This document shows, one piece after another, positions 1 to 30,417 of a DNA stretch of 64,000 bases. This DNA comes from Cellulophaga sp. BC115SP. GTDB lineage: Bacteria > Bacteroidota > Bacteroidia > Cytophagales > Spirosomataceae. The stretch covers positions 1-64,000 of the forward strand of contig NZ_JAAALB010000023.1 in assembly GCF_009905545.1 (NCBI RefSeq), written 5' to 3'. Position numbers and translations under genes: made by a program. The notes under the pieces were generated by a model. The model saw only the letters and a program-made list of their open reading frames with translations. It made no database searches and had not been told where the DNA came from. The number at the start of each line of letters is the position of its first letter. Within the stretch, counting starts at the first letter, position 1.

Positions 1-1112
1 TCTGGATCACCATCACCATCTTGGTCACCTGCTAATGGTACACTTATCGTTACTGTCGCACTAGCACATACTTGTGGAGTCACCAATGTATTACACACTT
101 GGTAAATCACTGTTACATTTGCACCACCCGGCTCCGTCGCTGATGGAGTGTAACTCATGATACCTGTTGTTGGTGCAAACACGACTGTACCACTTGCTGT
201 ACCACCTGTTCTAGTAATCACATTGCTTGCTACTGGTAAGAAGTCATCATTCGATAACACATTTACTGTACTGATTGTACCAAATGGTGCTGTTAAAGCA
301 TCATTAGCTGCTGTAGCAGTCTGTGGATTTGGATCTGTTCCATTTGGATTACCATCCTTATCACAGTCCTTGGTCAACCAAGATGGATCCACATTCGCAA
401 GTACTTGGTCTACCTTGTTGTAACTACATGCATCGTTTGGATCTGTATTGTCTGCTGTTGTCAATGGATCATTATCAGTTCCTGTTGCTTCCTTATAGTT
501 CGTTACCCCATCGCCATCACAGTCTGCATCACGCCAAGCTGTACTGGTATTTGCCAATACTTGACCAGTGCCCCATGAACATGGATTCGTTGGTTGAGGA
601 TCTGTTACATCTGGATCACCATCGCCGTCCGTATCGCCAGTTATGACCGTAATAGACGTCGTACTGTTATCATTTCCGGTAAGGTTACCTATTGTTTGAG
701 GGCCATTAAAACCTAAAGTACCTGTCACAGTTGAAGGACCTCCAATTGTTACCCCTGTATAACCTAATACGATTTGGCTACATTCTCCTGGAAGTATAGG
801 ACTCGTATTTTCTAATCGAATCGTTTGGCCATCGTTTGTTAACACAGTCCAACCGGTCGTCGTAATAGGAACTAGGGTACTCCCTATTAAGTTACTTGGC
901 AAAGTAATCAAGGGACGCAATCTATTCGCCGCAGCACTACGGCTACCGCCATCATTATTACAAATATCTACCGTCACCCGACCCAAGGTTGAACCTTGAG
1001 TCACGGTGGATGGTTGATTGATAATATTGATACTTACATCTTGGGCCTGAACCTTTACACTAACTAGTGCTAAGCAGACCAGAAGAATTACTATTTTTCG
1101 CAAAATGTTCAT
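1..1112 (-). CDS. Secreted calcium-repeat (TSP3-like) protein, 3' end cut by window edge
   Basis: This gene runs off the left edge: 370 codons are visible without a stop, so only the N-terminal part is described. The ATG lies 14 nt after the stop of the 915-residue paralogue, which makes it the third gene of one operon. Residues 1-23 form a signal peptide (MNILRK, a hydrophobic run, likely cleavage after VQA). Residues 24 to about 155 are a beta-rich module almost the same as in the neighbour (VTVDICNNDGG, SQIVLGYTGV). From about 159 come DxDxDG calcium-type repeats with paired cysteines ([33 protein letters not shown]). Residues 267-360 are a cadherin-like (Big_9 type) domain with NVLSNDDF and VIYQVCNT. 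Function is unknown; a surface adhesin or matrix protein is an inference from domain type. The signal peptide and paralogy are directly visible. Confidence 0.85.
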   Translation of the reverse strand, partial: MNILRKIVILLVCLALVSVKVQAQDVSINIINQPSTVTQGSTLGRVTVDICNNDGGSRSAAANRLRPLITLPSNLIGSTLVPITTTGWTVLTNDGQTIRLENTSPILPGECSQIVLGYTGVTIGGPSTVTGTLGFNGPQTIGNLTGNDNSTTSITVITGDTDGDGDPDVTDPQPTNPCSWGTGQVLANTSTAWRDADCDGDGVTNYKEATGTDNDPLTTADNTDPNDACSYNKVDQVLANVDPSWLTKDCDKDGNPNGTDPNPQTATAANDALTAPFGTISTVNVLSNDDFLPVASNVITRTGGTASGTVVFAPTTGIMSYTPSATEPGGANVTVIYQVCNTLVTPQVCASATVTISVPLAGDQDGDGDP

Positions 1113-1126
1113 AATGCTTGCTTTTA

Positions 1127-3874
1127 TTAGTTAGCTGTGATTTTAGTCTCAACGGTGTTGTTACTTACTTTTTCTTCACCAGCTGAACCGTAAATAATAG
1201 TGACTGTAATATTTTGACTTGTGTTGCTTGGTACATCAGTCTTACGTGTGGCAGTAAAACCAACCGTTTTCTTTCCATTCGGTGGTATTACTACTCCTGC
1301 TTTAGCTGTTACTGTAATAAAGTTGGCATTCTCTGTAAATGTCCAATCACTATTACTATTTGCTGTTCCGCCAACAAAGACATCTGAAGTACCTGAGGTC
1401 GATGGATAAGTAATTGTAAAGCCTGAGATTTTAGCAACTCTGAATACAATTGTGCTACCACTCACGTTTGGCTTATTATTAATTTCAAATACATTTACCA
1501 CAAAGTCTCTAGAAGCGCCTGCTGTCAAGAACTCCAAGCTGTTTATCTCAGTCGTTGGTGTTAAGTCTGGCAATAAAGCATCTTTCCAAACATTTGGTAA
1601 ACCATCTACCGGTGTCAAAATACCGTCGCCATCTGGATCACAATTCGTAGAACAATCTACTATACCATTATTATCTGCATCTAAGCTTGGATTCAAACCA
1701 CCTTCGATTAAGTCATAGAATCCATCATTATCGCTATCTAAGTCATAAGGATTTGGTTTATTATCTCCATCTGTATCTAATGCTGTTAATATTAAACCTG
1801 ATCCTGCTGTAGCTGGAATACCCAATAAAGAGATTACACCATCTGCCATACCATCCCCGTCTAGATCAATTCCACTGGCCTCATCTACATCGTTGATACC
1901 ATCGTTATCACTATCTAAGTCTAAGCGGTTTGGAATACCATCACCATCAGTATCTGCACTCAGTTGAGCATTTTCAACTGTATCCAAAATACCATCATTG
2001 TCATCATCCAAATCGTCTACATCTGGTACGCCATCTGCATCAGTATCGGCTGGGACTGTAATATTTACAGTTGCATTAGCACATACACTTGGTATAACTG
2101 AAGTGTTACATACTTGATAAGTTACTGTAACGGTTGTACCTCTTTCAGCAAGCGTAGGAGTATAACTCAAGATACCTGTAGTTGGAACAATTAAAACGGT
2201 TCCTGCTGCAGTACCTCCTGTTTGGGTTATAGTAGTAGTCAGACCTAACAAGAAGTCATCATTTAGTAATACATTAACAGTACTCAAAGAGCCATATCTT
2301 GCTACTAGTGCATCATCTACCGCTGTAGGTACTTGAGGATGAGGATCTGTTCCATTTGGATTTCCATCTTTATCACAGTCTTGTACTTTCCATGATGGAC
2401 TTGTATTAGAAAGAACCTGATCAACAGCATTGTAACTACAACCATCTAACGGATTCGTATTATCTGCAGTAGTAGCTGCGTTATTATCCGTACCAGTAGC
2501 TTCTTTATAGTTAGTAACACCGTCACCGTCGCAATCTGAGTTGCGCCAAGTTGTACTAGTGTTAGCTAATACTTGGTTTGAAGGATTATAGCTACAGCCA
2601 TTTGAATAGTCAGTACCATCGGTAATCTCTTGAGCATTAGTAACGCCATCGCCATCAATATCTGGATTAGCTTCACGATAATCAGGAATTCCATTAGTAT
2701 TACTATCTGGTAAAGCTGGATTATTGGCATCCCCGTAAGTTGCGCTTCCATCAACAAGTGTTACGATACCATCTCCATCTAAATCTGTGATTACATCAAC
2801 TCTTCCATCTTTATTCACATCAAGTGTTGCCGCACTGGCAATACCACTTTCTAATAAATCACTCAATCCGTCATCATCACTATCGATATCTAAATAATCA
2901 GGAAGACCATTGCTATCTGTATTGATTGGCGTAGGGTCACTACTATCTCCTCTAGAGCTACTACCATCGGCAACACCGACAATACCATCTCCATCAGGGT
3001 CTGTGCCATCTACAATACCATCACCATTGGCATCGATTAAGGCAGGATTACCGCTTTCGATAATATCATTAATACCATCATTGTCGCTATCCAAATCATA
3101 AGGATTGGCACGAGTATCTAAATCTGAATCTGGAGGAATTGTTCCAGTCAACTGATTAGCACTTGCTGGGATACCTGTTAGTCCTGAAGTACCATCAGCG
3201 ATACCATCATTATTAGCATCTACTCCGCCTGCTTCAATTACATCATTGATACCATCGTTATCACTATCTAAATCTAAACTGTTAGGAACACCATCTCCAT
3301 CTAAATCGGCAGAGAATTGAAGATCCTCAACAGTATCTAGAATACCATCGTTATCGTCATCTAGGTCAATGGTATCGGCAATAGTATCTCCATCTGTATC
3401 TAAGAATACGGTGATAGAGGTTGTACTAAGGTCGTTTCCTGGCAAGTTACCAAAGGTTGGTAATCCATTAAATTGTAAAGTACCTACTACAGGAAGTGGT
3501 CCACCCACAGAAACGCCTGTATATCCTAATACAATTTGGCTACATTCACCTGGTGCGATAGCTGTCGTATTTTGCAAACGAATAGTTTGACCATCGTTAG
3601 AAATAACTGTCCATCCTGTTACTGTTACTGGAACTACAGAAGTTCCAGTAAGTAAATTTGGAAAACTAATTACTGGCTGTAATTTTCCGATAGCCGCATT
3701 ACGGCTACCCCCATCATTATTACAGATATCTACAGTAACACGTCCCAACGTCGAACCCTGCGAAACAGCGGCAGGCTGGTTTAGAATGTTGATACTAACA
3801 TCCTGCGCTTCCACTTCACATAGCCCTCCACTAATGAGAGCTGTAACGAGCATTAGTTGTTTAATACGTCTCAT
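1127..3874 (-). CDS. Secreted TSP3-like calcium-repeat protein, 915 aa
   Basis: Exported protein of unknown function, second gene of the three-gene paralogue operon (20 nt after the 2170-residue gene, 14 nt before the next). Residues 1-23 are a signal peptide (MRRIKQ, hydrophobic core, VEA then QDV). Residues 24-135 carry the same beta-rich N-terminal module as the downstream gene. About two dozen Asp-rich repeats of the form [11 protein letters not shown] fill roughly 135-510 and 610-770; such repeats bind calcium in thrombospondin type-3 and EF-hand-like proteins. Two cysteine-flanked units ([17 protein letters not shown] and [10 protein letters not shown]) precede a cadherin-like Big_9 domain at about 518-610 (NVLLNDDF, VTYQVCNT). 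The last 140 residues (775-915) form a domain shared with the 2170-residue protein. I recognise no classical T9SS C-terminal signal. Role as a surface or matrix protein is inferred. Confidence 0.88.
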   Translation of the reverse strand: MRRIKQLMLVTALISGGLCEVEAQDVSINILNQPAAVSQGSTLGRVTVDICNNDGGSRNAAIGKLQPVISFPNLLTGTSVVPVTVTGWTVISNDGQTIRLQNTTAIAPGECSQIVLGYTGVSVGGPLPVVGTLQFNGLPTFGNLPGNDLSTTSITVFLDTDGDTIADTIDLDDDNDGILDTVEDLQFSADLDGDGVPNSLDLDSDNDGINDVIEAGGVDANNDGIADGTSGLTGIPASANQLTGTIPPDSDLDTRANPYDLDSDNDGINDIIESGNPALIDANGDGIVDGTDPDGDGIVGVADGSSSRGDSSDPTPINTDSNGLPDYLDIDSDDDGLSDLLESGIASAATLDVNKDGRVDVITDLDGDGIVTLVDGSATYGDANNPALPDSNTNGIPDYREANPDIDGDGVTNAQEITDGTDYSNGCSYNPSNQVLANTSTTWRNSDCDGDGVTNYKEATGTDNNAATTADNTNPLDGCSYNAVDQVLSNTSPSWKVQDCDKDGNPNGTDPHPQVPTAVDDALVARYGSLSTVNVLLNDDFLLGLTTTITQTGGTAAGTVLIVPTTGILSYTPTLAERGTTVTVTYQVCNTSVIPSVCANATVNITVPADTDADGVPDVDDLDDDNDGILDTVENAQLSADTDGDGIPNRLDLDSDNDGINDVDEASGIDLDGDGMADGVISLLGIPATAGSGLILTALDTDGDNKPNPYDLDSDNDGFYDLIEGGLNPSLDADNNGIVDCSTNCDPDGDGILTPVDGLPNVWKDALLPDLTPTTEINSLEFLTAGASRDFVVNVFEINNKPNVSGSTIVFRVAKISGFTITYPSTSGTSDVFVGGTANSNSDWTFTENANFITVTAKAGVVIPPNGKKTVGFTATRKTDVPSNTSQNITVTIIYGSAGEEKVSNNTVETKITAN

Positions 3875-3894
3875 GATTTCAAGTTTAGTTAGTG

Positions 3895-6800
3895 TTAGTT
3901 AGCAGTGATTTTAGTTTCAACAGTGTTGTTGTCTACTTTTTCTTCACCAGCTGAACCGTAAATGACAGTCACTGTAATATTTTGACTTGTATTGCTTGGT
4001 ACACCTGACTTACGTGCTACTGTAAAGCCTATGACCTTCTTCCCATTTTGTGGAATCACGACACCCGGCTTAGCTGTCACCGTAATAAAGTTGGCATTCT
4101 CTGTAAAAGTCCAATCACTATTACTATTTGTTGTACCGCCAAATACATTTGATGTACCTGAAGTATTTGAATACGTAATCGTAAAGCCTGATATTTTGGC
4201 AACTCTAAAACCAATCGTACTACCACTTACATTTGGTACATTATTGATTTCAAACACATTTACCACAAAATCTCTAGGAGTACCTGCTGTTAAGAATTCC
4301 AAACTGTTAATCTCCGTAGTTGGTGTTAAGTCTGGTAATAAAGCATCTTTCCACACATTTGGTAAACCATCTACTGGTGTCAAGATACCATCACCATCTG
4401 GATCGCAGTTCGTTGTGCAATCTACTATACCATCACCATTAGCATCCAAATTAGGATTCAAACCGCCATCCTCTAAGTCTGTAATACCATCATTATTACT
4501 ATCTAAATCATAAGGATTTGGTTTTAAGTCATTGTCTGTATCTGGTGGAGTTAGACCTAAGCCTGCAGTAGATGGAATTCCTGTTGGAGAAACTAGTCCA
4601 TCTGCCATACCATCGCCATCTATATCTATACCATTGGCCTCATCTACGTCGTTAATACCATCGTTGTCGCTATCTAAGTCTAGGCGGTTTGGAATACCAT
4701 CACCGTCGACATCTGCACTTAGTTGAGCATCTTCAACTGTGTCTAAAATACCATCGTTGTCATCATCCAAATCATCGACATCTGGGACACCATCTGCATC
4801 GGTATCTACAGGAACTGTGATTGTTACAGTAGCAGTGGCACATACATTTGGCGTAACTGAAGTATTACACACTTGATAAATTACAGTAACAGTTGTACCA
4901 CGTTCTGTAATCAATGGTGTGTAAGTAAGCATACCAGTCAATGGGTTAAAACTTACTGTTCCATTTGCAGTCCCACCAGTTTTAGAAAGTGATGTTGTCA
5001 AACTTGGCAAGAAGTCATCATTGGCTAAGATGTTAAATCCTGTGGCACTACCATATTTAGCGGTAAACGCATCTGCTACTGCTGTAGGAGTTTTAGGATT
5101 TGGATCGGTACCATTTGGATTACCATCTTTATCACAATCCAATAATTTCCAAGCTGCACTTGTACTACTCAACACCTGATCTACTGCATTGTAGCTACAG
5201 CCATCTAATGGATTAGTATTATCTGCCGTCGTAGCTGGGTTATTATCTGTGCCAGCAACTTCTTTATAGTTGGTTACACCATCACCATCACAATCACCAT
5301 TTCTCCAAGCAGTTGTAGTATTAGCCAATACTTGATTCGGTCCCCATACACAACCATCTGTTGGTGCTGGGTCTGTGTTGTCAGGATCACCATCACCATC
5401 TAAGTCTCCTGCTGCAGGTACACTAATAGTTACCGTTGCCGAAGCACATACATTTGGCGTTACTGCGGTATTACATACTTGATAGATGATAGTAACATTC
5501 GTCCCAGGCTCTGTTGGTGCTGGGCTGTAAGCCAATACTCCTGTAACATTATTGAAAGTATAAGTACCTATAGCGGCCCCTCCTGTTTTAGTAATTGAAG
5601 TAGTTAAACCAGGTAAGAAATCGTCGTTTGTCAATACATTAACAATACTTGATACACCAAACGGAGCGGTTAACATGTCAGCATTTGCAGTTGCAACTTT
5701 TGGATTAGGGTCAGTACCATTAGGGTTACCATCTTTATCGCAGTCTGCGCTCTTCCAAGTAGTTGAGGTATTAGCAAATACTTGATCTGCAACATTATAA
5801 CTACATGGATCTAACGGATTTGTATTATCTGCTGTAGTAGCTGGGTTTCTATCCAAACCATTGATTTCATCTTTGTTTGTTACACCATCACCATCGCAAT
5901 CTCCTGTACTGGTTGCCACTAGAGTTACTTGACTCAAATTCAAACTACAAGCACTCTTAGGATCGGTATTATCAGCAGTAGTTGCAGGGTTTCCATCCGA
6001 GCCAGTTGCTTCATCATAGTTTTTCACACCATCACCATCACAGTCTGCATTACGCCAAGCTGTAGTAGTATTAGCCAACACTTGATTTACGCTCCATACA
6101 CACGGGTCATTTGGTGCAGGGTCAGTACTGTCAAGGTCACCGTCGCCATCACTATCACAAACGTTGATTGTTACAGTAACTACTCCAGAGGCAGGGCTGT
6201 AACAAGTAGCAGTTGCATCATAGTAGAAAGCATAGTAAGTACCTGCTCCTGCAGCTCCAGGAGTACTCAAAGCTGAGCCTGTATGAGCGTTGTTAGTAAA
6301 CCAAACCAAAGTAGCACCTACTGGAGTGGTACTTGTGATAGCACTATTTAGGTTGGCTGTTGTAGCTGGACAAATATTAGAAATTGCTGCTGTAGAGCCT
6401 CCTCCTGATAAAGTTGGAGCTGTAAAGCCTGCTGTTGTTGCAGTACGTAATACGACACCATAAACACGAGTAGTACCTACATTTACACCTACTAGATTAG
6501 AGATTGAAATACGAACCTCATTAAATGGTTTGGTTGTTTTGAATCCTATTACCTGACGAGTAGAACTCAACAACGTAAGTGAAATCAAACCTCCAGCATT
6601 ACTTTCTTGAGCAACCCCATTCAAATAGGTTGTAATAGAAGCATTATTAAATAAGCTAGCTCCTAATAAAGTACTGTTTTCAACATCGTAACCTGCAAAA
6701 GTTCCAGCAGGATAAGTTGAAACTGCATCTTTTACTGAAATAGACCCACTACTGAGTACACCAGCTGTCAAAATAATATCAGCGTAATTTGAAGTACTTG

Positions 6801-9800
6801 CATCCAACACATTTGCTGTATTATTAACAGCACAAGCCACACATGCTGCACCACTGATACCTGTCAAGCTTCCATTCAATACTGCTGGATAAGTAGGAGA
6901 TACAATGTAAGTATCGCCACAAGTCAATGTAGGACCAGCACACAATTTTTGTACAACAAGGTTATATACATTCGTAGTACTAATGATACCCAACAAGTTG
7001 GTCATCTGGAATTGTACTTCGTCAAAGTCTTTGGTCGTTACAAAACCTACTAGTTGATTGCCTGAACCTGTCAACAATGAAGAATTTACAGAAAGTAAAG
7101 TCCCTGTTGTTGATGTTTCTTGCAAAACACCTGCTTTATACGTTTTAATCGTAATACCCGAAAGCAAGTTGGCATTAATCAAACTTGTATTTGCGATATT
7201 AAAACCTGCAAATGAACCCGCAGTATAAGTAGTCAATACATCTTTTACAGAAATAGAAGAAGTACTGCCAAGTGCTGCTGCCATTGTAATAGTAGCAAAG
7301 TCTGAAGTGCTTGAAGTAATTAAGTTTTCAGAATTGTTAATCGAACAACCTACACAGGCAACTCCAGAGATACCTGTATTGGCATCATTAATCACAACAG
7401 GATAAGTTGTGTTAGAAAGGATTGTCTGAGTGTTACAAGTCAAAGCTGTTGGAGCACAGAATTTCTCAATTACTGGGTAATAAACCTGTCCTGAGAATAG
7501 AGCACCAACCAATGTTGTATATTTAATACGAACCTCATCAAATGCAGCTGTTGTTACAAAACCTACTGTTGCTAATCCTGAACCGTCTAGCAAACTAGAT
7601 TCGATACCAATCAAACTAGTTACAACATCTTTGCCTTCTACAAAAGCGCCATTATTATAGGTTTCGATTCTTACACCTGATGCTATACTACCACTAATCA
7701 AGTTAGCTGATCCAATTTTGAAACCTGCATAATATCCTGCTGGATACGTATCAGCTACATCATTATCTTTTACAGCAATAGTAATATTACATCCCAAACC
7801 AGTTAAGCTAAAGCTCACATTGTTTGTCAAGTCAGCATCTACTAAGTTGGAGTTATTGCCTGAAATTAATGGCAAACAAATACCTCCAGTAGATCTAGTC
7901 GCTGATAAGTTTGTATAAAGCGAGTTGGTCCAAGGAGATTTTGTATTACAAGGCCCCCCAGTAGCACCTGTTCCAGAACAAGATGAAATAAATACATCTA
8001 CTGAATTGGATGCAACACTATAACAACCTGTAGTTGCATTATAATAGAATGCATAGTAAGTACCATTGGTAGCTGCCGTAGGCGTTGCGTAAGCCGTACC
8101 AGTATGTGCATTGTTTGTAAACCATACCAAAGTAGTTCCTGACGGAGCAGTACTTGTTACAGCACTATTCAAATTCACCGTTGTTGCTGGACAAGCATTT
8201 AATAAGCTTGTAGAGCTTAGTACTGGAACTGCCAAAGCAGGATCACATGGATCTAAAGGATTAGTTCCATTTGTTTTTTCAGTCGAGTTACTAATACCAT
8301 CACCATCACAGTCAGAAGTATTCCAACTTGAAGAAGGGGTTCTTGTTTGGCTAGCAAGCACAAATGAACAAGCATCAAGTGGATCTGTCCCATCAATACC
8401 CTCTTGACCATCTGTTACGCCATCACCATCAGCATCATCAGACGACACTGCAATAGCAATAGAACAAGTCCCTGTTGCATTAGGAGATGTGATTGTCAAG
8501 GTTCTTGTACCAGCCGTACCACTACCGTCGTAAGTAATAGGAATATCAACAAAAGTTGCCCCCTGTGCAATAGAAGTAGTAAAAGGAGAAGGAGTTGAAA
8601 CAATACCTGCTCCAGAAATAGTCACGGTAAAGGCAGCCTGTCCATTTACAGCACTACTAATAGGAACACGTAAAGTGGAAGTTTGTCCTGTTGTTCCATT
8701 GGCATATAGAGGAGTTCCTACCAATCCTGCCGACGGAGAAGAACAGTTAAATGAGAATGTTGCTGGTACGTTAGTTACAGTAGCACAAGAACCTAAGTCA
8801 CCTAAGGTTACACCAGTAACCGAACCAACATAAGTGGATACACCAGTTGAGGCATTTATTTTCCACAAATCAGTATTACTACCATTGATACGAGAATAAT
8901 AAAAGGAATCTCCAAGGTACGCCAAGCCATTACCTACAGCACCATTACCCATAGTTGGAAACGCACCTGTTGCTGTAACTACTTTGGTAGCAGTCAAAGC
9001 TGTTGGATTAATACGGTACAGGTGAGAAGCATTGGTTTCCATCAAAATACAATAGAGGTTCCCACTGGCATCCACTGCAATATCATTGAGCGTAGTACCA
9101 CTAGTCCATGTTGCATCGCCACTAATTGGACCAACATCAACACCATTACCAGAACCAGTCCATTTAGTTAATTCCTTTAAAGCAATACCATAAACTACAC
9201 CTGAGGATGGATCTGTACCCAAACCAATTGGAGAAGCAATTGTGTTACCTGTAGAGGTTAACGTTGCCGTTGTCGATTGGGCAGGTGCAGTATAAATAGT
9301 ACCACTAGCGTTGTTAACAGATGTTACAAAACGGTTTTGATTTAAATTACCTGGAATAGGACCAAAAGCCATATTACCTTGGTTATTCTGATTTCCTACT
9401 GCAACAAGAGTCGTTGCCAAGGTAGTTAAATCTATACGGTAAATTGAATGAGTACCTGCAACAACTCCAAAAAGTTCATTACAGCTTGGAGCCGTAATAG
9501 GAGTATAAGATTGACAAGACGCTAAATCTAGATTAATATTTGGAGCAGACCCCAAAAACGAAGCAAGCTGAACATTGGTCTTTACTGTACCTTGACCTGT
9601 ATTAGGATTAATCTCGTAGATTCTAGCATTAACATAAGTTGTCAATAAAACAGCACTTGTTACAATTTCTGTAGCATAAATCATCCCGTTGTAGAAGGCA
9701 ATACCCTGAAAGTTTGCAGGAATACTACCGCTCAACTGAATTACCTGAGAAGCTACTTTGGTAGACAAGTTTACTGAATACAAATAACTTGCACTACCAT

Positions 9801-10407
9801 TTTTAACGGGTACATACATTTTACCCACATTATCAAAAAACGCATCATTTGAAATGGTACCTCCAGTCCAAGTAGCATCACCTGTAACTGTGCCCAAATC
9901 CGATGATGGCGAAGGATACACTTTTACCAAATGTCTATCAGAAGTCATTCCATAAACATATCCAGCATTTGCTCCTGTAGTAAGAGGATTGGTAGTTAAG
10001 CCCCCCAAAGCAAGTGGAAGCGTTATACTTGTGCTGGTGTTGTTTTTGTAGACCGTAGAACTAGCCGCTGTTTCAGAAGAAACAAATACTGTAGAACTAA
10101 GGCTCGAAGCATCAGGACCAACGGCCAAGTTACTCTTTCCTGCTGTCATGGTCGTGACTAGCGTCTTAGACCCATCAAGAGCTGAAATAGAATAAACCTT
10201 TCCGTCGTAGCTGTTGAGTAGGAACAAATCTGTACAGTTTTGTCCTAGAACAGGCGAAACAAGGAATACCAATGCAAACTGAAAACCTACTAGAGCTGCT
10301 ATCCTATTAATAAGGATGCTTCCCAAATAGCTAAGGTATTCAGAGAATACATTCGATGCTCCAAACAATTTCCGCATGGCGTGGGAAAATGTAATTGTTG
10401 AATTCAT
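3895..10407 (-). CDS. Giant modular secreted protein with Ig-like, calcium-repeat and threefold-repeat domains, 2170 aa
   Basis: First gene of the paralogue operon. The N-terminus is unusually long for a signal sequence: about 33 residues precede the hydrophobic stretch that ends at LGQ (residue 56); Met11 is an alternative start. Residues about 57-552 look like two related propeller-type blocks (SYDGKVYSI... and [12 protein letters not shown]...). A Calx-beta-like stretch (about 553-655) and calcium repeats (660-725) follow. Ig-like domains of the PKD/Ig_7 type lie at about 726-807 and 1331-1415 ([11 protein letters not shown] in both). Between them, 807-1330 holds three copies of a repeat of about 170-200 residues that I cannot assign (VKD, TYPAG, FAG, VGF, TT motifs). 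Then come Cys-bearing calcium repeats, two Big_9 cadherin-like domains (1572-1659 and 1777-1862), more calcium repeats and the C-terminal domain shared with the 915-residue protein. Likely a cell-surface or matrix protein; function unknown. Confidence 0.88.
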
Positions 10408-11414: not shown

Positions 11415-12107
11415 ATGTTCAAGAAAAAATGTTTAATTATTGAAGACTCAGAAATCGCCATTGTGAATTTAAATATGCAATTGGAGAAGCTTTCTATATT
11501 TGATATTAGCGTAGCACGAAACTACAATCAAGCACGCTCTTTTTTAAGTAATGATAAGTATGATCTCATCTTTTTAGATATAAAACTACATGATAATTCA
11601 GGTTTAGATTTAGTAAATGAGTTTCCAAAACTACCACCAATTATTGTTACAAGTTCCAACGTGGAGTTCGCTATCGATACTTACGAAATAAATTCAATTG
11701 TGGATTTCATAAAAAAGCCAGTAAATGAAGAAAGATTAATAAAATCTATCGATAAAGCCCTAAATAGGCACCAAACATCGAATAGCATGATAGAAAAAAA
11801 TTATGCTTTTATAAAAATTGGTAGACAAGCCATGAAATTTGACTTTGAAGATATTGACTTCATTAACGCTTTCGGAATCTATTCAAAAATTTACACTGAA
11901 AATAAATCAACGGTTGTCAATGAATCTATTGCAACTTTAGAGGAAGTGCTACCGAGTAAAATTTTCAGAAGAATACATAAATCTTACATCGTAAATGTGA
12001 GCAAAGTAACTGGCTATGATCATAAAAGTATCTTTATAAATGATGTAGTACTTCCCATAGGTTTTTCCTATAAAAAAAATATTAACGAGCTCATTCAGTT
12101 CATTTAG
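11415..12107 (+). CDS. LytTR-family response regulator, orphan
   Basis: Two-component response regulator that probably controls transcription. Residues 1-115 are a receiver domain: acidic pocket E10/D11, phospho-acceptor D55 in LIFLDIKL, T79 in IIVTSS, and the conserved K101-P102. Residues about 130-230 are a LytTR DNA-binding domain (DIDFINAFGIYSKIYT, FRRIHKSYIVNVSKV). At 230 residues the length and architecture match the second LytTR regulator at 54527, with which it is clearly homologous. Unlike that one, no histidine kinase is adjacent, so its phosphodonor is unknown. It is transcribed away from the surface-protein operon across a 1-kb spacer and ends at a strong terminator. Regulation of the neighbouring operon is possible but only inferred. 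Confidence 0.92.
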   Translation: MFKKKCLIIEDSEIAIVNLNMQLEKLSIFDISVARNYNQARSFLSNDKYDLIFLDIKLHDNSGLDLVNEFPKLPPIIVTSSNVEFAIDTYEINSIVDFIKKPVNEERLIKSIDKALNRHQTSNSMIEKNYAFIKIGRQAMKFDFEDIDFINAFGIYSKIYTENKSTVVNESIATLEEVLPSKIFRRIHKSYIVNVSKVTGYDHKSIFINDVVLPIGFSYKKNINELIQFI

Positions 12108-22963: not shown

Positions 22964-25900
22964 TTAGTCAGACAAACTAAATCTTACTTGGAAACCAGCA
23001 GCTATCGTTGAGCGATAATACAAGGTAGATACCCACGGGTTATTAAACATCTTGTCGACATACATATTCACATTCAATCGCTTGTTGACATTATAACTTA
23101 CTTGTGGTCTAAATTGAAAATTAACATATCCATTCGTCACCACAGTTTCAGCATCTAGCTTTCTTTGAATAGTTCTTGTATCTCTAATCGTCAAGTTCAT
23201 CTGGAACTTCATATCATTCGGCAATCGTACTTTTCGTCCGTTAACCTTAAATGGCACTAGCATATTCGCCTTTGTAAAGCCCATTCCAAAGGTAAAATCC
23301 TTATTACTTAGCTCGGCTACTTGCGAGTTGGATAAATTTAAACCTACACTTCTGTCCTGAGCATATTCCAAACGAAGTGAGATTTTGTTTTTAGTCGTAG
23401 CGTTAAATCCTATGAATGGTCCAAATTTCTCTTCAAATTTAATCGTACTCATTACATAAACAGGAATCAAATAGCCTTGCTCGTTTACTTTACTAGAAAG
23501 TGGATATAGCATATTATCTATTTTCAGCTCAAATGGATTATCATATTCCAAAGACGAAACAAAGTTACCTACCGAGTAGGTCGAACTATATCGGTGCGTA
23601 ATCGAGATATTCGAGAAACGCTCTTTGAACCAACCAACATTACTCAAACCGTTGTAGTCTAATTGCCAGTTTGGCAATGGAATATTCACAAATGGAGAGA
23701 AGCTCACTTTGTTTGGAGAAATACCACTATACGCCGCAAAGAAAGCGGGAATCAATACATCCTGCGAGTTTATATCGTAGGCTTCATTTCCAGTAATAAC
23801 TCTCGAGGCTTCTAATCTCTGTTTAATGATATTTCTATATGACTTGAATCTGTTAAAAATACCTGAAGACTCATTTGGTGCATTGCTATCAAATGCCGTC
23901 AAAAATGACAGGAAGGTCATCTGATAATTACCCGAACGTACTGGACTTTGATGTTTGTATGCGCCTCCCATTTCTGTTGGACGGTAAAATTCTTGGTAAT
24001 TATCTGTCCTACTCCATTTTCCTTCCAACTGTATTCTAAAGTCTCTAAATGGTTCTATCGAACTACCATAAGTGAAATTTTGTGTTTTGGTTTGGACAAA
24101 AGGCACGTTTTGAACAATACTTTTCGATAACCAACCATTGGCGGCTGCTCTTGTTAATACATCATAGTCTTGGCTACCTGTTACAAAGCCAAAACCTGGT
24201 GCCGAACCATCAGCAGCACTCATCCCCAAAATTCCAGAGCCTGGCATAAACCCTGGCAACGTTGTAGATTCGTTAATGGTATATCTTACATTGATACCTC
24301 GAATAGCCATCATCAAACGGGTTACACTTCGTACGAAAGTTGGCTGAGGTTTGATAATATCTTCATCATCACCTGGGCTTCTTGCCACGTTTTTACGTTC
24401 TACCCTTGGTTGGTTCGCCAGACGTAATGCACGCACACGATTGTATAATGCTACAAAGTCAATCTTGCCATTGATACCTCTTTCACGAGTATTTTTAATC
24501 AAATTTCCTAAAGGAACATCCAACGAGTCACGACTATCGTACGAACTCGCTAAATACTGATAGCCAAATTTATGACTATACTCAGCCGACATCCAGTCGG
24601 TCAGTGGTGACTTATTGAGAGGTAATCTCCAGACAGCACTAAAGTTTTGGTCAAAGTTTTTGGTACGTCCCAAGCTTTTTATGCTTCTCCAAACAGAATC
24701 CTTTTTGGCTTGCGTATCTATGTCACCTTGAGGTTCGTCGATAATAGCACGTGCATTGGCAGCGTAGTTTACAATAACGGATTTGGTCAAATTCCAACCT
24801 AGATTATATTGTCTTGTAAACATCCAATATTTCTCAAACATTGGTGCTACGCCATCGGTAGTTAGATCGGCATTTCGTAATTGAGTTTTTACAAAATTAC
24901 GATCCATATCTGCCCTCACCGTAATAGAGTTAGGCAACGGAGAAAAGTTGATTTCTTTAATCCATCTCAACAAAGGATAATCAGACTTTATTCCTTTAAA
25001 TGGCTCTATCGGTTTACTTGTTCCTGCATAAGCATACATGATACCACCTCTGTGAGAAACTTGTTTATATGCATCTATGAGGGTATTACTTCTAGTCAGT
25101 TCTGCAAACGAGTATGAAATGGCAATATTTTCAATATCCCATAAATGTGCTTTCCCTCCTCCTACTTTTATCTTACGAACATTGGTAAGGTTAATTGCTC
25201 GACGCTCAGAATTATCTTCTACGATTTTCTGAAGCATAGCTCTCTTCGCTGGATCTGTGATATTATTAAGCGATTGCTCCAAAGGAATATCAGGATCAAG
25301 TGGATTAAAATGTGGTGTCGAATTACTTTTGTCATAACTGATATACAAAGGAATTCTTAAACCCCATTTATCTGGGAATAATTTATCCAAATTAATCGTA
25401 GCGGCGATTCCATAGGCATAAGAAGTCTCTCGTGAGCGTTCAGAAATTTTAGATTGTACACCTCCAAAGCCATATCCTTTGTAAGAGGCATTCAAGGTAA
25501 CATTGGCAAAATCTGCCAACTTTAGCCCTAGTTTTCCTACTGCCGCATTACCAGAAGTTTGATCAAATCCATTAGAACGTAATTCGTCGACCCAAATACA
25601 AAATGATTTAGGTAGTTCATCCGAAGACTTTGGATTTCTCACCCCAATCATCAGAGACACCACTGCACTCAAGTCTGGGCGACCCACCACACGTACTCGA
25701 TACAATTGTCCATTATTTCCCACAACACTATCCATAAGATATGGCGTAGTCAAGGCTACTTGTGCCTTATCACGTTTGAGTTTTGCTGCCCGTAAAGCAT
25801 CAAATGGAATATCTATTTCATTTTCCGCAGGCCAAACTTCTGTATCTAAGTATGAGCTTTTTCCTTTAGGTGTAATCGTCAAACCACGCGTTTCAACCTC

Positions 25901-28900
25901 ATAATAGTTATCTGTTTGATCTGTACCAATTCTTACAAATGCTGAAACATCTCCTGTTCTTGTGTTTGCATCATCTGTTTCAGCATGAATAAACATTTTT
26001 AGATTTTTGTAATTCAAGAAATCAAAAACTGTATTCTTAAATACCGCACGCGAATCTCCATCACGCAATCCATCTACACAAAGGGACATAGACTGTTCGT
26101 TCAAAGCAACGTTATTCACCGTTGTTACATCACGGTCACGCTGAAACCCTGGAGGAACTGAGTATGGCACTGTTTTGCCTGCTTTGTTAGCAGGTCCATT
26201 TTCGTCAATATTTACGGTTGAAACCTTAAAATTAGCATCATAAGGCTCTGGAACTTCCTGTAAACCTCTTGGTGTCAAATCTCCAGTATAAGTACGATAC
26301 TGATAACCTGATAGTTGAAAAGAAGCAAAACGAAATACTACAGGAGCTTCCCAATCAGTAGTAAACATTCGGATAAAGCGCATAGACTTAAATCCGTTGA
26401 TATTACCTACTTTATTCGAATAGTTCTTGATAGGGATTCTAAACAAATACCAACTTACGCCTCCCTCTGTGATTTGGTCAACAATATAATTTTGTCCTAC
26501 TGCCATTTTCTCCTTTTTCATATCGAGCTCATACTCGTAATAGGCATCTGTGTCAGTAATGGTATTATCATTGTTCAAATCCTCTCTATCTGGTTGTTGA
26601 TTACTTGCTTCTGTATAACCTGATGCGGTACTTGTTGAAGAAGGTGGTGAGTTATTTTCCAAACCCATATAACTCTTATAACGCTTTACAAGGCTGGAGG
26701 TACTGCTATATCGTTCGTTTAGATAGTGAATAAAATCATCGCCAGAAGGGTCTTCCTCGATTTCAGATTTCATATTTGCATCAATATTCAACCCTTGAAT
26801 CGTGCGAACATAATCAGCGAATTTTGCTTTTTCATTCCAAACATTATCAAAACTTGTTGGGTTGTTTGGTAAACCGTCCAAACCAACATCTTGTTGCTCA
26901 CGACCATTTTGTAAGTCAAAAGCATTGGTTACAAATTGTCGAGTTGGTGCAAGCCCCCAAACAGTTGAGTCTACGTTGGCTAGAGAACCTTGGGTAATTT
27001 TTTGCCCTGTAGGAATACCATTTTCAAAATTGTAACGTCCATCTGGGATAAAGTCTTCAGAAATATCACCAAGGTTGAATACTAACTTTCCACCTGTACG
27101 GTTACGAATCAAACTGGCCTCTTTATCTTTATCGAAATCTCCAGTGGCACGTACAATACCAGTTCTATTACCAGAATTTGCTGTTGCACCTGCATCAACC
27201 TCCGCAAATGGATCCATCATCCAAAACTCTAATGTTTCGATATTGGCATTGTCAAAGTCTGTATCTGAACTAATTGCGCGTGTAATTGCCCCAAAGTTTT
27301 TCTTTGGATTAGCTATAAACTGATCTAACTTAGGGTTGTAATTATACATCCCTCTCTCTCCAGGGAAATACGAAACGTCCAAAATTCCCACAGGAACGTT
27401 GATGTTATTCGCCACCGAACGGTTAGGGAATAAGGCTTGAGACGAAACTACACGTTCATAAGCATAGTTTGCCACGTCTTGCGAGTTGATGCCAACACTT
27501 CCTGTTTCTAAACTACTTGTTCCGTACAAACTATAATCAACTGTATAAGCCGAAATCTTAGCTCTATTAAAATTACTTTCTATTGAGTTAGGAGACGTAA
27601 TTGGCACAATCGTTTTAGGAACCGACCCCGGTCTCCAAGAATTCGCTTGAGTATTAAGGCTAAAGATATTTCTAGCAGATTCAAAATCGTCAATAAAAGC
27701 GTTGCTATTTACAGCACTATTCACACCCGGAATAAGACGAGCAAATTCTCCTTGAAAATCAATGGCAGAGGTTTCTTTGGTCGAAATCAATGGTAGAGCA
27801 TCCACCAGACGAGTCAAAAGCAAAGACTTTTTCTGAATGGCTGCATCCAAGCCAAACATGGTATTATTGATGGGTTCATTACCAATTTGTACCCTTGTCA
27901 AAAAGCTTGGAGGGGTTTCAGAAAGATGCTGTAAAGTACCCCCTAAGTGAATATCCTTCCCTAAAGTATAATCGATGTGTGTTCCTAAAAGTGTACGTAT
28001 TTGATTATTGAATAAATCTGGCTTTTCATAACAAATCCTAATTTCACGTCCTGAATTGGAAATGCCCGAATTAAGGATTTTTACACGACCTACTTGTGGT
28101 TCAACAATGTAGTCTACACCAGGTGTAAGGGCAACACCTCCTGCAGTCACTTGTACGGAGTTACCATCTACCCCCAAAGGTAAATTTACATCACCACCAA
28201 GCGACGACTGATAACTACCTTTCAAGAAAAACTTATTCTTACTTGCAATTTGTTGCGCATCGGCAAGCGTCGAAGTGTACAGTTTATCAAATACATACTT
28301 ATCTACCAATTGAGACTCATCCGCTTCGAATTTCTTTCTAAGTGTACCTCCAAAAGGTTCAAGGACAGGAAAAATGATTTTACCATTTCTGCTATCTACT
28401 GTAACGCCTTCAATAAAGTCGAAATTACCATCAGTCTGACGGTCACCGTTTTGGTTCATTTTATCAAGTCCTAAAACTTGAACCAATGGAATATCTTTCA
28501 CATTTCGACCTTCCAACAAACTTGGATTGTCGATACCTGTATTATCGTCTTTGTAAATAACACGTAACTGAAAACCTGTTTTGGAAATCTGAGAACCATT
28601 TAATGAATAAACGTTCTTCATCATCAAATTCCACATCGGGTGGTTCAATACGTTACGGATGGTCGATGACTTCAAAAGTTTTAACACCAACACTTCATTG
28701 TCTTGGCGGTTTTGGTAATCTTCCGTTAACTCCCCTACCTTGTATTTTTGCCCATTCATGGTATATTCATAAGACACCGCAAGCACTTCATCATTACGAA
28801 GTGGCGTGACCAAGGAGATATAACCCAATTCAGGACTAAAACGATATTCTCTTTCTGTAAGCTTTTTGGCTCCACGCAATACATCAAAGTCGGTACCTTT

Positions 28901-30331
28901 ATCCAAACCATCCGCTACGAGCAAGCTTGTAGTCTGATCAGCCTTACGAATTTCAGCATTTGCCGAATTAGGGTCTAAGTACTTATTGTAAAGCGTATTG
29001 TTTTTGTTATTCACAGGCGTACCTCCATTAGCACCTGAAGCAGCTGCAACCCCATTGTTGGGATTATATGGGTTAGTTGGAGCACCTTCTCCTAGATCCG
29101 AGAAACCTACGATATTGCGTAGAGTTTCAGTATTTTGAGAACGGTTTGTGACATATACTTCCAAACGAGTAATAGTAATACCAGAAGAAATATAGGCAGT
29201 TTCGGTACTCGTAGTACTACGTGAATTTTGTGATAAATCAGTAGACGATGTAGTATTATTGAGTGAGTTCGTTGAAACGCCCGAAGACATCACCGAAACA
29301 TTTTTTAGCGAACTTTCGTATTTGTTACGGAAAAACGTAGATAAGAAAAAGTGTCTATTTTCATCATAGTTATCAGCACGGATTTCGAAAGTTTTACCCT
29401 GAGAGCCACCTTTTAAGGTAATACAATCTTGTTTAGAGCGCTGTTGTGCCGCGACTAAAGTAACATCTACTTTACCAAAACGCATTAAGGTTTTCAAACC
29501 AAATAGGTTTTGAACCCCAGGAATGAGTTGGCTATTAAGAGTCCAAGAGGTATTTCCTACTTCGATGTTTTGGAGTATATCTTCTTCATTTGAACGCCAG
29601 TTGAGTTTGAGTTGATTTTGAAAATTGAAACTTGCCTTGGTATCAAAGTTGGTATTGAGATTAAACTTATTACCAATTTTTCCTTGAAAGTTAATTTGTG
29701 CTTGCTCGTTAAAGTTCAGGTTTCCGATATATCGTTGCTGAACTGGGATGGCTGGGTTATCGATAAACTGTCCGATGTAGCCAATGTCTAGTAAGATATT
29801 GCCGTTAGGTTTAAAGTCAATTTCAGACCCACCAAAAATACGGTCAATGGCTGGAGGGAGCTCTATTTTTGGTAAAATACCCCGCCCTCGGGTTTCATCT
29901 TTTCCATCTTGAGAGGCAGCGTATTTTTTCCAATAGTCTCGCACAAAACGATTTTGTTGTACCTTCTGATACTCCTCAAAAGTCATTTGCTGTGATGGCC
30001 TGTAATTGGCATCTGAGCCTGTCAGTTTTTCATAAACCGTTATACGCCCAGCCGAATCCAATTTGAACTCCGTTGAGGTAGATTTGGTATCCTTTATGAT
30101 AAATGGAGAAGAAGGCGAACGATCAGAGAAACGGTTAGTATAACGATCTTTGATTTTATATTTGGGACGACGCCCAGATTTTTGTACCGTATCGGCGGGT
30201 ACAGAAACGCCTAAAAACGGCTTGCTTGTCCAAAGAGACTCAGGACTACGCAGAGGGAACTCCCACGCGAGTGAAGCAAATACCGATAAAACTAAACTTC
30301 CAGAAAGTATGTAAAACTTTTTCCTTTGCAC
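22964..30331 (-). CDS. sprA: Type IX secretion outer-membrane translocon SprA
   Basis: Giant outer-membrane beta-barrel that forms the T9SS export channel and is also needed for gliding. About 2455 residues from a GTG at 30331, in line with the roughly 2400-residue family. A signal peptide is visible (QRKKFYILSGSLVLSVFASLA). The body shows the family features: LIPGVQNLFGLKTLMRFGKVDV, many aromatic alternating strands, and a C-terminal strand ending RSTIAAGFQVRFSLSD. No ATG occurs before about residue 115 in this frame; GTG at 30331, TTG at 30352 and TTG at 30400 are the options, and I prefer GTG because it gives the most natural signal peptide. It follows ruvA by about 140 nt (with a hairpin between) and precedes gcvH, the conserved order. 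Confidence 0.94.
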   Translation of the reverse strand: MQRKKFYILSGSLVLSVFASLAWEFPLRSPESLWTSKPFLGVSVPADTVQKSGRRPKYKIKDRYTNRFSDRSPSSPFIIKDTKSTSTEFKLDSAGRITVYEKLTGSDANYRPSQQMTFEEYQKVQQNRFVRDYWKKYAASQDGKDETRGRGILPKIELPPAIDRIFGGSEIDFKPNGNILLDIGYIGQFIDNPAIPVQQRYIGNLNFNEQAQINFQGKIGNKFNLNTNFDTKASFNFQNQLKLNWRSNEEDILQNIEVGNTSWTLNSQLIPGVQNLFGLKTLMRFGKVDVTLVAAQQRSKQDCITLKGGSQGKTFEIRADNYDENRHFFLSTFFRNKYESSLKNVSVMSSGVSTNSLNNTTSSTDLSQNSRSTTSTETAYISSGITITRLEVYVTNRSQNTETLRNIVGFSDLGEGAPTNPYNPNNGVAAASGANGGTPVNNKNNTLYNKYLDPNSANAEIRKADQTTSLLVADGLDKGTDFDVLRGAKKLTEREYRFSPELGYISLVTPLRNDEVLAVSYEYTMNGQKYKVGELTEDYQNRQDNEVLVLKLLKSSTIRNVLNHPMWNLMMKNVYSLNGSQISKTGFQLRVIYKDDNTGIDNPSLLEGRNVKDIPLVQVLGLDKMNQNGDRQTDGNFDFIEGVTVDSRNGKIIFPVLEPFGGTLRKKFEADESQLVDKYVFDKLYTSTLADAQQIASKNKFFLKGSYQSSLGGDVNLPLGVDGNSVQVTAGGVALTPGVDYIVEPQVGRVKILNSGISNSGREIRICYEKPDLFNNQIRTLLGTHIDYTLGKDIHLGGTLQHLSETPPSFLTRVQIGNEPINNTMFGLDAAIQKKSLLLTRLVDALPLISTKETSAIDFQGEFARLIPGVNSAVNSNAFIDDFESARNIFSLNTQANSWRPGSVPKTIVPITSPNSIESNFNRAKISAYTVDYSLYGTSSLETGSVGINSQDVANYAYERVVSSQALFPNRSVANNINVPVGILDVSYFPGERGMYNYNPKLDQFIANPKKNFGAITRAISSDTDFDNANIETLEFWMMDPFAEVDAGATANSGNRTGIVRATGDFDKDKEASLIRNRTGGKLVFNLGDISEDFIPDGRYNFENGIPTGQKITQGSLANVDSTVWGLAPTRQFVTNAFDLQNGREQQDVGLDGLPNNPTSFDNVWNEKAKFADYVRTIQGLNIDANMKSEIEEDPSGDDFIHYLNERYSSTSSLVKRYKSYMGLENNSPPSSTSTASGYTEASNQQPDREDLNNDNTITDTDAYYEYELDMKKEKMAVGQNYIVDQITEGGVSWYLFRIPIKNYSNKVGNINGFKSMRFIRMFTTDWEAPVVFRFASFQLSGYQYRTYTGDLTPRGLQEVPEPYDANFKVSTVNIDENGPANKAGKTVPYSVPPGFQRDRDVTTVNNVALNEQSMSLCVDGLRDGDSRAVFKNTVFDFLNYKNLKMFIHAETDDANTRTGDVSAFVRIGTDQTDNYYEVETRGLTITPKGKSSYLDTEVWPAENEIDIPFDALRAAKLKRDKAQVALTTPYLMDSVVGNNGQLYRVRVVGRPDLSAVVSLMIGVRNPKSSDELPKSFCIWVDELRSNGFDQTSGNAAVGKLGLKLADFANVTLNASYKGYGFGGVQSKISERSRETSYAYGIAATINLDKLFPDKWGLRIPLYISYDKSNSTPHFNPLDPDIPLEQSLNNITDPAKRAMLQKIVEDNSERRAINLTNVRKIKVGGGKAHLWDIENIAISYSFAELTRSNTLIDAYKQVSHRGGIMYAYAGTSKPIEPFKGIKSDYPLLRWIKEINFSPLPNSITVRADMDRNFVKTQLRNADLTTDGVAPMFEKYWMFTRQYNLGWNLTKSVIVNYAANARAIIDEPQGDIDTQAKKDSVWRSIKSLGRTKNFDQNFSAVWRLPLNKSPLTDWMSAEYSHKFGYQYLASSYDSRDSLDVPLGNLIKNTRERGINGKIDFVALYNRVRALRLANQPRVERKNVARSPGDDEDIIKPQPTFVRSVTRLMMAIRGINVRYTINESTTLPGFMPGSGILGMSAADGSAPGFGFVTGSQDYDVLTRAAANGWLSKSIVQNVPFVQTKTQNFTYGSSIEPFRDFRIQLEGKWSRTDNYQEFYRPTEMGGAYKHQSPVRSGNYQMTFLSFLTAFDSNAPNESSGIFNRFKSYRNIIKQRLEASRVITGNEAYDINSQDVLIPAFFAAYSGISPNKVSFSPFVNIPLPNWQLDYNGLSNVGWFKERFSNISITHRYSSTYSVGNFVSSLEYDNPFELKIDNMLYPLSSKVNEQGYLIPVYVMSTIKFEEKFGPFIGFNATTKNKISLRLEYAQDRSVGLNLSNSQVAELSNKDFTFGMGFTKANMLVPFKVNGRKVRLPNDMKFQMNLTIRDTRTIQRKLDAETVVTNGYVNFQFRPQVSYNVNKRLNVNMYVDKMFNNPWVSTLYYRSTIAAGFQVRFSLSD

Positions 30332-30417
30332 AGTTGATTGCTTAAAAGTCAAAATCTTGGTGAATTCAAAATGGCACAACAAAGCCAAAACGTCCAACAA
30401 GCTCTTATATTTTGGAA

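Follow-up and report, generated by a model that had tools for sequence, protein, structure and literature searches.

Three consecutive genes at one end of a contig from Cellulophaga sp. BC115SP, here called A, B and C, carry two kinds of end domain in a matched order: a gene whose product ends in one domain (Cdom) is followed by a gene whose product begins with another (Nmod). The stretch analysed, hereafter the window, is the 64,000 nucleotides at positions 1-64000 of contig NZ_JAAALB010000023.1 (C123; 93,325 bp) in a genome of 7.08 Mb and 206 contigs, and its host is taken to belong with Flectobacillus throughout. The matched order of end domains escaped a preliminary description of this DNA. 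Judging from sequence, we tentatively read the genes as a client-anchor surface system, at a little under an even chance, in which Cdom would dock to the Nmod anchor encoded by the next gene.

In such a system, the client would have an apparent signal peptide, a diverse body and a C-terminal Cdom, with no recognised sorting domain of the type IX secretion system (T9SS). The anchor, encoded by the next gene, would present Nmod as its mature N-terminus, and its other end would usually be a sorting domain, either of T9SS type A or of another putative kind. The Cdom of the upstream product would dock onto the Nmod of the downstream product, and export and attachment of the anchor would display the client as well. 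In Flectobacillus, Runella and a further genus (represented by G047), B could act as a middle link in a chain, A-Cdom/Nmod-B-Cdom/Nmod-C. The reading draws on gene order, domain positions, co-inheritance and the lack of sorting-model matches in the Cdom proteins scanned. From these we infer physical docking and its order, with the partners meeting either in the periplasm (piggy-back export) or outside.

All three genes lie on the reverse strand. Gene A (3895..10407) encodes 2170 aa with TSP3 and Big_9 parts and a C-terminal Cdom (3898..4332, reverse strand; aa 2026-2170). Gene B (1127..3874) encodes 915 aa, with an Nmod (3407..3805, reverse strand; aa 24-156) right behind an apparent signal peptide, a Cdom at the end (1130..1567, reverse strand; aa 770-915) and calcium-repeat-like parts in between. 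Gene C (3..1112) is present as its first 370 aa, including an Nmod (645..1043, reverse strand; aa 24-156), and its frame is open because the window start is also the contig end. Cdom, of about 145 aa, is thus common to A and B, and Nmod, of about 133 aa, to B and C. The DxDxDGxx[DN] motif occurs 14 times in A, 14 times in B and three times in the fragment of C. The preliminary description of a tandem holds in its anatomy: the open reading frames (ORFs), the gaps of 20 nt (A-B) and 14 nt (B-C), and both shared domains were all recovered. Here, the term operon refers to gene spacing and the term secreted to signal peptides judged by eye.

We surveyed 222 genomes of the host's family with profiles of both domains; the Cdom figures in this survey are among the matches listed. 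Cdom matched in 69 genomes and Nmod in 38. At 52 of the 62 Nmod sites, a Cdom on the same strand ends 77-247 bp upstream, and 49 of the 78 strong Cdom sites have an Nmod no more than 250 bp downstream (the pairing count covers 102 Cdom places, namely these 78 and a selection of weaker ones). The intergenic distance in 53 Cdom-Nmod pairs ranges from -4 to 165 nt. Nmod is present in 36 of the 37 genomes with a strong Cdom, and the exception, G180, has both of its Cdoms near contig ends. The ten Nmod sites that have no Cdom close upstream are three lone B genes of the type on host contig C163, one site in G167, three loci where the Nmod gene comes first (in G061, G088 and G059), the arylsulfotransferase case (L087) in G186, and fragments in G162 and G179.

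We fetched 40 loci and examined 54, including those of the host and of named species. In the named Flectobacillus, Runella, Dyadobacter and Membranihabitans, the Cdom-ending gene is usually followed by an Nmod-starting gene. The full A-B-C chain (Cdom; Nmod and Cdom; Nmod) is found in Flectobacillus, including the window, in Runella and in the genus of G047. Gene lengths in Flectobacillus longus are 2170 and 915 aa with the third gene incomplete, and in Flectobacillus sp. BAB-3569 they are 2175 and 914 aa, again with an incomplete third gene. The Cdom profile matched in 28 of 390 genomes of the order, all from the host's own family among the matches listed, and in 6 of 395 genomes of the phylum; a broadened Cdom profile matched in 7 of 360 genomes of the class. 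Nmod was found in 1 of 395 genomes of the class, which is the host genome itself. The cassette order is kept in Membranihabitans and in G297, a different family.

Positions were counted for matches extending to the end of the Cdom profile or the start of the Nmod profile. On this count, Cdom ends 0-6 aa before the stop in 77 of 78 proteins, and all 58 Nmods begin between aa 20 and 48. Across 77 Cdoms, Asp21, Lys46, Asn72, Trp75 and Asn137 never vary; when distant relatives are added, only Asn72, Trp75 and Asn137 are invariant (23/23). The invariance of Lys46 in 77/77 had raised the idea of a Lys-Asn isopeptide bond with an acidic catalyst, as in CLIPPER, which is now a weak idea because Lys46 is lost in the distant loci L140-L142. 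In Nmod, Cys28 and Cys88 are each found in 49 of 58 proteins, and a disulfide between them is possible. As a separate observation, a 213-aa protein, as called, in Dyadobacter luticola (L027, 9788-10429) amounts to roughly an apparent signal peptide plus Cdom, and no Nmod gene was found in that locus.

AlphaFold2 models of the Cdom and Nmod of B are both beta sandwiches, with predicted local distance difference test (pLDDT) scores of 90.9 and 91.2 and predicted template modelling (pTM) scores of 0.88 and 0.85, respectively. The top Foldseek match for both is the CLIPPER structure 9ifr (E 4.1e-6 for Cdom and 6.8e-6 for Nmod). VIA-align to 9ifr gives Z 10.9 for Cdom (root-mean-square deviation 2.6, 117 aligned) and Z 12.4 for Nmod (2.4, 116), with similar Z for many other sandwiches such as integrin legs, pilins, CARDB and cohesins. 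Both models have the CnaA-like fold of CLIPPER (DUF11), a domain defined in the available text of PMC12617251. These matches of predicted models tell the fold and not the function. At E<=1, the CLIPPER family PF01345 matches none of the three window proteins (A, B and the fragment of C) in sequence; no sequence in the PDB matches Cdom at E<=1, and those for Nmod are at chance level only. A direct profile comparison detects no homology between Cdom and Nmod (hhalign probability 0.1). The two are nevertheless likely to be of common origin, because their predicted strand order is similar and the Nmod profile matches the Cdom of the distant locus L143 at 5e-6.

The shared fold leaves room for another explanation, in which Cdom and Nmod cap the ends of CnaA/CLIPPER/CARDB-type stalks and were spread by operon duplication, so that gene order reflects common descent with no specific pairing. 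Resemblance to 9ifr, the hint of common origin in the L143 cross-match and evident duplication all agree with it. However, the order persists in Membranihabitans and in the other family, G297, as well as in Cdom genes whose other parts are unrelated, and duplication alone does not predict a matched order. We consider this explanation improbable.

The two classes of protein differ in their sorting signals. None of 66 Cdom proteins matches a T9SS sorting model at E<=0.01, including TIGR04183/PF18962 and TIGR04131 (66 of the 78 were scanned, after 12 near-duplicates or incomplete ones were dropped). Of 40 complete Nmod-only proteins, 36 carry a sorting domain, comprising 32 TIGR04183 (type A) and, in Runella, four CVP-CTERM. 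The other four are three 810-aa Flectobacillus proteins with a 265-aa end and one 364-aa protein of G047. Two further Nmod-only proteins, a broken 481-aa frame and a 77-aa fragment, were left out of the scan. For the window itself, TIGR04183/PF18962 and TIGR04131 are not matched in A or B, and at E<=1 no Pfam or NCBIfam sorting model matches any of the three products, that of C as far as it is present, which bears out the earlier remark that a classical T9SS signal is absent. The host genome has 37 TIGR04183 matches above the cut-off; CVP-CTERM has no match there, in a search that had no positive-control match. Outside Cdom, the Cdom proteins vary, with Big_9, ice-binding (2), choice-of-anchor C (4), arylsulfotransferase and more. 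Because of the choice-of-anchor C and ice-binding matches, Cdom appears to occupy the spot where an anchor could sit.

These absences also agree with a different function for Cdom. It might be an unrecognised C-terminal sorting or anchoring domain of the T9SS, or of another outer-membrane route, with the Nmod protein as a second, independently exported subunit. This is the main rival to docking, and we consider it somewhat unlikely. A beta sandwich of about 145 aa has the size of a T9SS C-terminal domain (CTD), and known sorting models are missing from all 66 Cdom proteins. No solved T9SS CTD is among the Foldseek or VIA-align matches listed for Cdom, which excludes nothing. Such a domain would leave unexplained why Cdom stands ahead of 52 of 62 Nmod sites and why B proteins have both domains. 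Moreover, the PorP/SprF shuttle is absent from the 25 commonest of 76 families among 101 neighbours of 33 loci (this count excludes open frames and proteins longer than 900 aa, and one further locus, of 34, contributed no neighbour).

We examined the pair rule in two sets of loci, both hand-picked from the listed matches. The first comprised six loci at which the Cdom either was weak or came from outside the family. At five of the six, the downstream gene encodes 345-373 aa with a type A CTD-like end, and Nmod matches are clear at both G297 loci and one G151 locus (E 4e-14, 6e-8 and 5e-7). At the sixth (genus g33; L142, 7178-9499), two opposite-strand ORFs (249 and 517 aa) lie directly downstream of the Cdom gene, where an Nmod partner might be expected; we take them to resemble an IS21-type pair. 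The second set comprised 20 further distant loci with 21 Cdoms, of which 14 loci are from g33, the genus that contains Spirosoma telluris. Cdom lies no more than 9 aa from the stop in 21 of 21, and a detectable Nmod gene comes next at seven of the 20 loci, one of them without a CTD. The broadened Nmod profile used here was built with the five partners from the first set, and the original profile gives E<=0.002 for all seven positives. In support of pairing, the distance matrices of 51 cognate Cdom-Nmod pairs correlate at r 0.86, compared with a mean of 0.80 for within-genome re-pairing, and 10 of 2000 such shuffles attained 0.86.

A number of results weigh against docking. Among the matches listed, 29 of the 78 strong Cdom sites have no Nmod inside 250 bp. 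C163 and its orthologues have a lone B-type gene, at Runella locus L065 no Cdom gene was detected ahead of B, the Nmod gene precedes two Cdom genes at L093-L095, and Cdom and Nmod are unequal in number at several loci (3:1 in L070). Two partners in the first set match Nmod at E 0.07-0.09 only, and such weak matches are not specific because the Nmod profile also matches some Cdoms, as in L143. In the second set, three of the 20 loci have an adjoining CTD protein of about 360 aa but no detectable Nmod, one (L171) has a CTD protein of about 360 aa some 1.4 kb past its second Cdom gene, and the remaining nine, all of them g33 loci, have nothing of the kind on that strand. The pair rule thus holds well in Flectobacillus, Runella and Dyadobacter and poorly in g33, a genus with many orphan Cdom genes. 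Linked genes co-diverge without binding, and physical linkage alone can give the correlation between the 51 cognate pairs. The extreme C-terminal placement of Cdom also fits a sorting signal, and docking itself is predicted from sequence. Finally, the Flectobacillus anchors either are incomplete or terminate in the 265-aa domain, and a T9SS anchor at the window locus is therefore putative. Gene C is truncated by the contig end; 32 of the 40 complete relatives carry TIGR04183, and the 810-aa relative in the host (L012) does not.

One locus bears on the choice between the two functions proposed for Cdom. At L087 (g33), the Cdom of a 718-aa arylsulfotransferase lies close to the N-terminus, at residues 76-219, and an Nmod-starting gene follows all the same. 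A C-terminal sorting signal should fail from such a position, and a docking domain could work there, although this is a single case. The data do not decide between docking and a sorting signal. We favour docking; L087 and the two-domain B proteins speak for it, and the orphan Cdom genes speak for the sorting signal. A more specific form of the docking proposal is two-component T9SS display. Proteins that lack T9SS signals altogether, some of more than 2000 residues, would cross the outer membrane or stay at the surface only through docking of Cdom to the Nmod of a dedicated, CTD-bearing carrier, and the arrangement could extend into an A-B-C chain set by gene order. We regard this form as possible but doubtful.

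The preliminary description had suggested that the locus resembles surface-antigen families, in which recombination between modules creates variants. It had called the C-terminal parts of A and B close to identical, which overstated their similarity: protein identity is 86% over 305 aa, and over 486 codons nucleotide identity is 78%, with a proportion of synonymous differences (pS) of 0.54, synonymous divergence (dS) of 0.95, nonsynonymous divergence (dN) of 0.13 and a longest identical run of 30 nt. It had proposed a comparison for conversion tracts; within the window, genes A and B show none (permutation p 0.18). It had also named two observations as contrary to shuffling, a fixed domain order and no shared identity at synonymous sites; the order is fixed at this locus, and some synonymous-site sharing is present.

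Recombination does occur in the genus. In BAB-3569, a tract of about 229 bp is common to B of one locus and A of another (0/2000 shuffles). The C genes behind this B and A are 98-100% identical per 50-bp window along a 750-bp stretch that reaches the end of one contig; this may be an assembly error. Identity of Cdom DNA between A and B within a genome (0.83-0.86) is about that between orthologues (0.81-0.91), and for F. longus A and B it is 0.846, compared with 0.809 between A of F. longus and A of BAB-3569. These data indicate concerted evolution of Cdom in the genus. The first 480 bp of B and C, including Nmod, are not homogenised (identity 0.63). A 671-bp internal repeat at 93% identity in the second, Nmod-type gene of the C201 copy (L011, 4794-6214) is a recent repeat expansion. 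The BAB-3569 tract, the concerted evolution of Cdom and this repeat would suit an antigen family, but identical order and near-equal lengths in three Flectobacillus genomes, together with the A-B dS and the lack of a tract in the window, make it very improbable. The shared modules, tandem genes and missing classical T9SS signal of the earlier interpretation stand, and antigenic shuffling at the window locus is not supported.

The host genome has Cdom at five places: A, B, contig C201, a locus on C1 and a locus on C163. On C1, a gene for a 2099-aa Cdom protein precedes one for an 810-aa Nmod protein; on C163, a gene for an 880-aa protein with both Nmod and Cdom stands alone. The 810-aa protein (L012, 1269-3701) ends in the 265-aa domain (LKVFLKGAYN...), which has no Pfam or NCBIfam match, is present in single copy in the host genome and is also found in F. 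longus and BAB-3569; it is perhaps another terminal anchor. The C201 counterpart of gene C, like gene C itself, ends inside repeats at a contig end. A repeat-based search of the host genome matched no contig able to carry the remainder of gene C. Contig-end overlaps of C123, C201 and C181 gave no continuation of gene C or of its C201 counterpart, and neither did three contigs on which a CTD gene lies close to one end. The right end of C181 (L014) and the left end of C201 (L011) share a repeat at about 98% identity over 135-176 aligned bp, and the C201 Cdom gene may therefore continue a very large gene on C181.

A divergent LytTR response regulator gene (11415..12107, forward strand) adjoins the operon and is a putative regulator. 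LytTR regulators adjoin three Cdom loci in the host genome (window 11415-12107; L012, 11084-11863; L013, 3448-4203). The host genome has 36 LytTR matches, and 8 of the 101 neighbours of 33 cassette loci are LytTR. We considered LytTR as a fixed part of the cassette and rejected this, as it was not found beside two F. longus loci, the A locus (L121) and L023. The window also contains, at 22964-30400, a gene which we take to be sprA.

In cellulosomes, cohesin-dockerin pairs join diverse clients with a terminal module to a scaffold with a receptor module. The logic proposed here is analogous, and cohesins are among the structural matches of Nmod (Z 11.5-11.9), as are many sandwiches. However, Cdom is a beta sandwich and not a dockerin, none of the 20 Pfam families with a match in the 66 Cdom proteins (E<=0.001) is a dockerin, and a common fold shows no function. 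Modular synthases use C- to N-terminal docking domains encoded in operon order, which resembles the present case in that the C-terminal end of one product meets the N-terminal end of the next. Their folds and function are unrelated, and Cdom and Nmod are predicted to be extracellular.

CTD types A, B and C of the T9SS are listed in the available part of the review PMC10202324. The nearest analogue is the type B substrate with its cognate PorP/SprF shuttle, as presented in the available text of PMC12618676. Likenesses there are a C-terminal domain of similar size, a partner often directly downstream, cognate pairs and adhesin-like cargo. In contrast to type B substrates, Cdom proteins have no TIGR04131 match, and their partner, rather than being an outer-membrane shuttle, is itself secreted and usually bears a type A CTD. 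Compared with the CLIPPER or CnaA-like stalks in the accessible text of PMC12617251, the predicted fold of Cdom and Nmod is alike, but they are single terminal copies in two different proteins rather than tandem repeats, and the published Lys/Asp/Asn bond was not identified in either. At the level of titles and abstract openings, with most subscription papers and all preprints beyond reach of the search, we found no description of Cdom-Nmod pairing.

The T9SS substrate classes in the cited papers, as far as their available text goes, each carry their own C-terminal signal. The Cdom-Nmod pairing yields a simple binding test. If docking is correct, T9SS cargo lists drawn from CTD searches would miss a class of proteins, and the pairing would provide a modular route to protein display on Bacteroidota.

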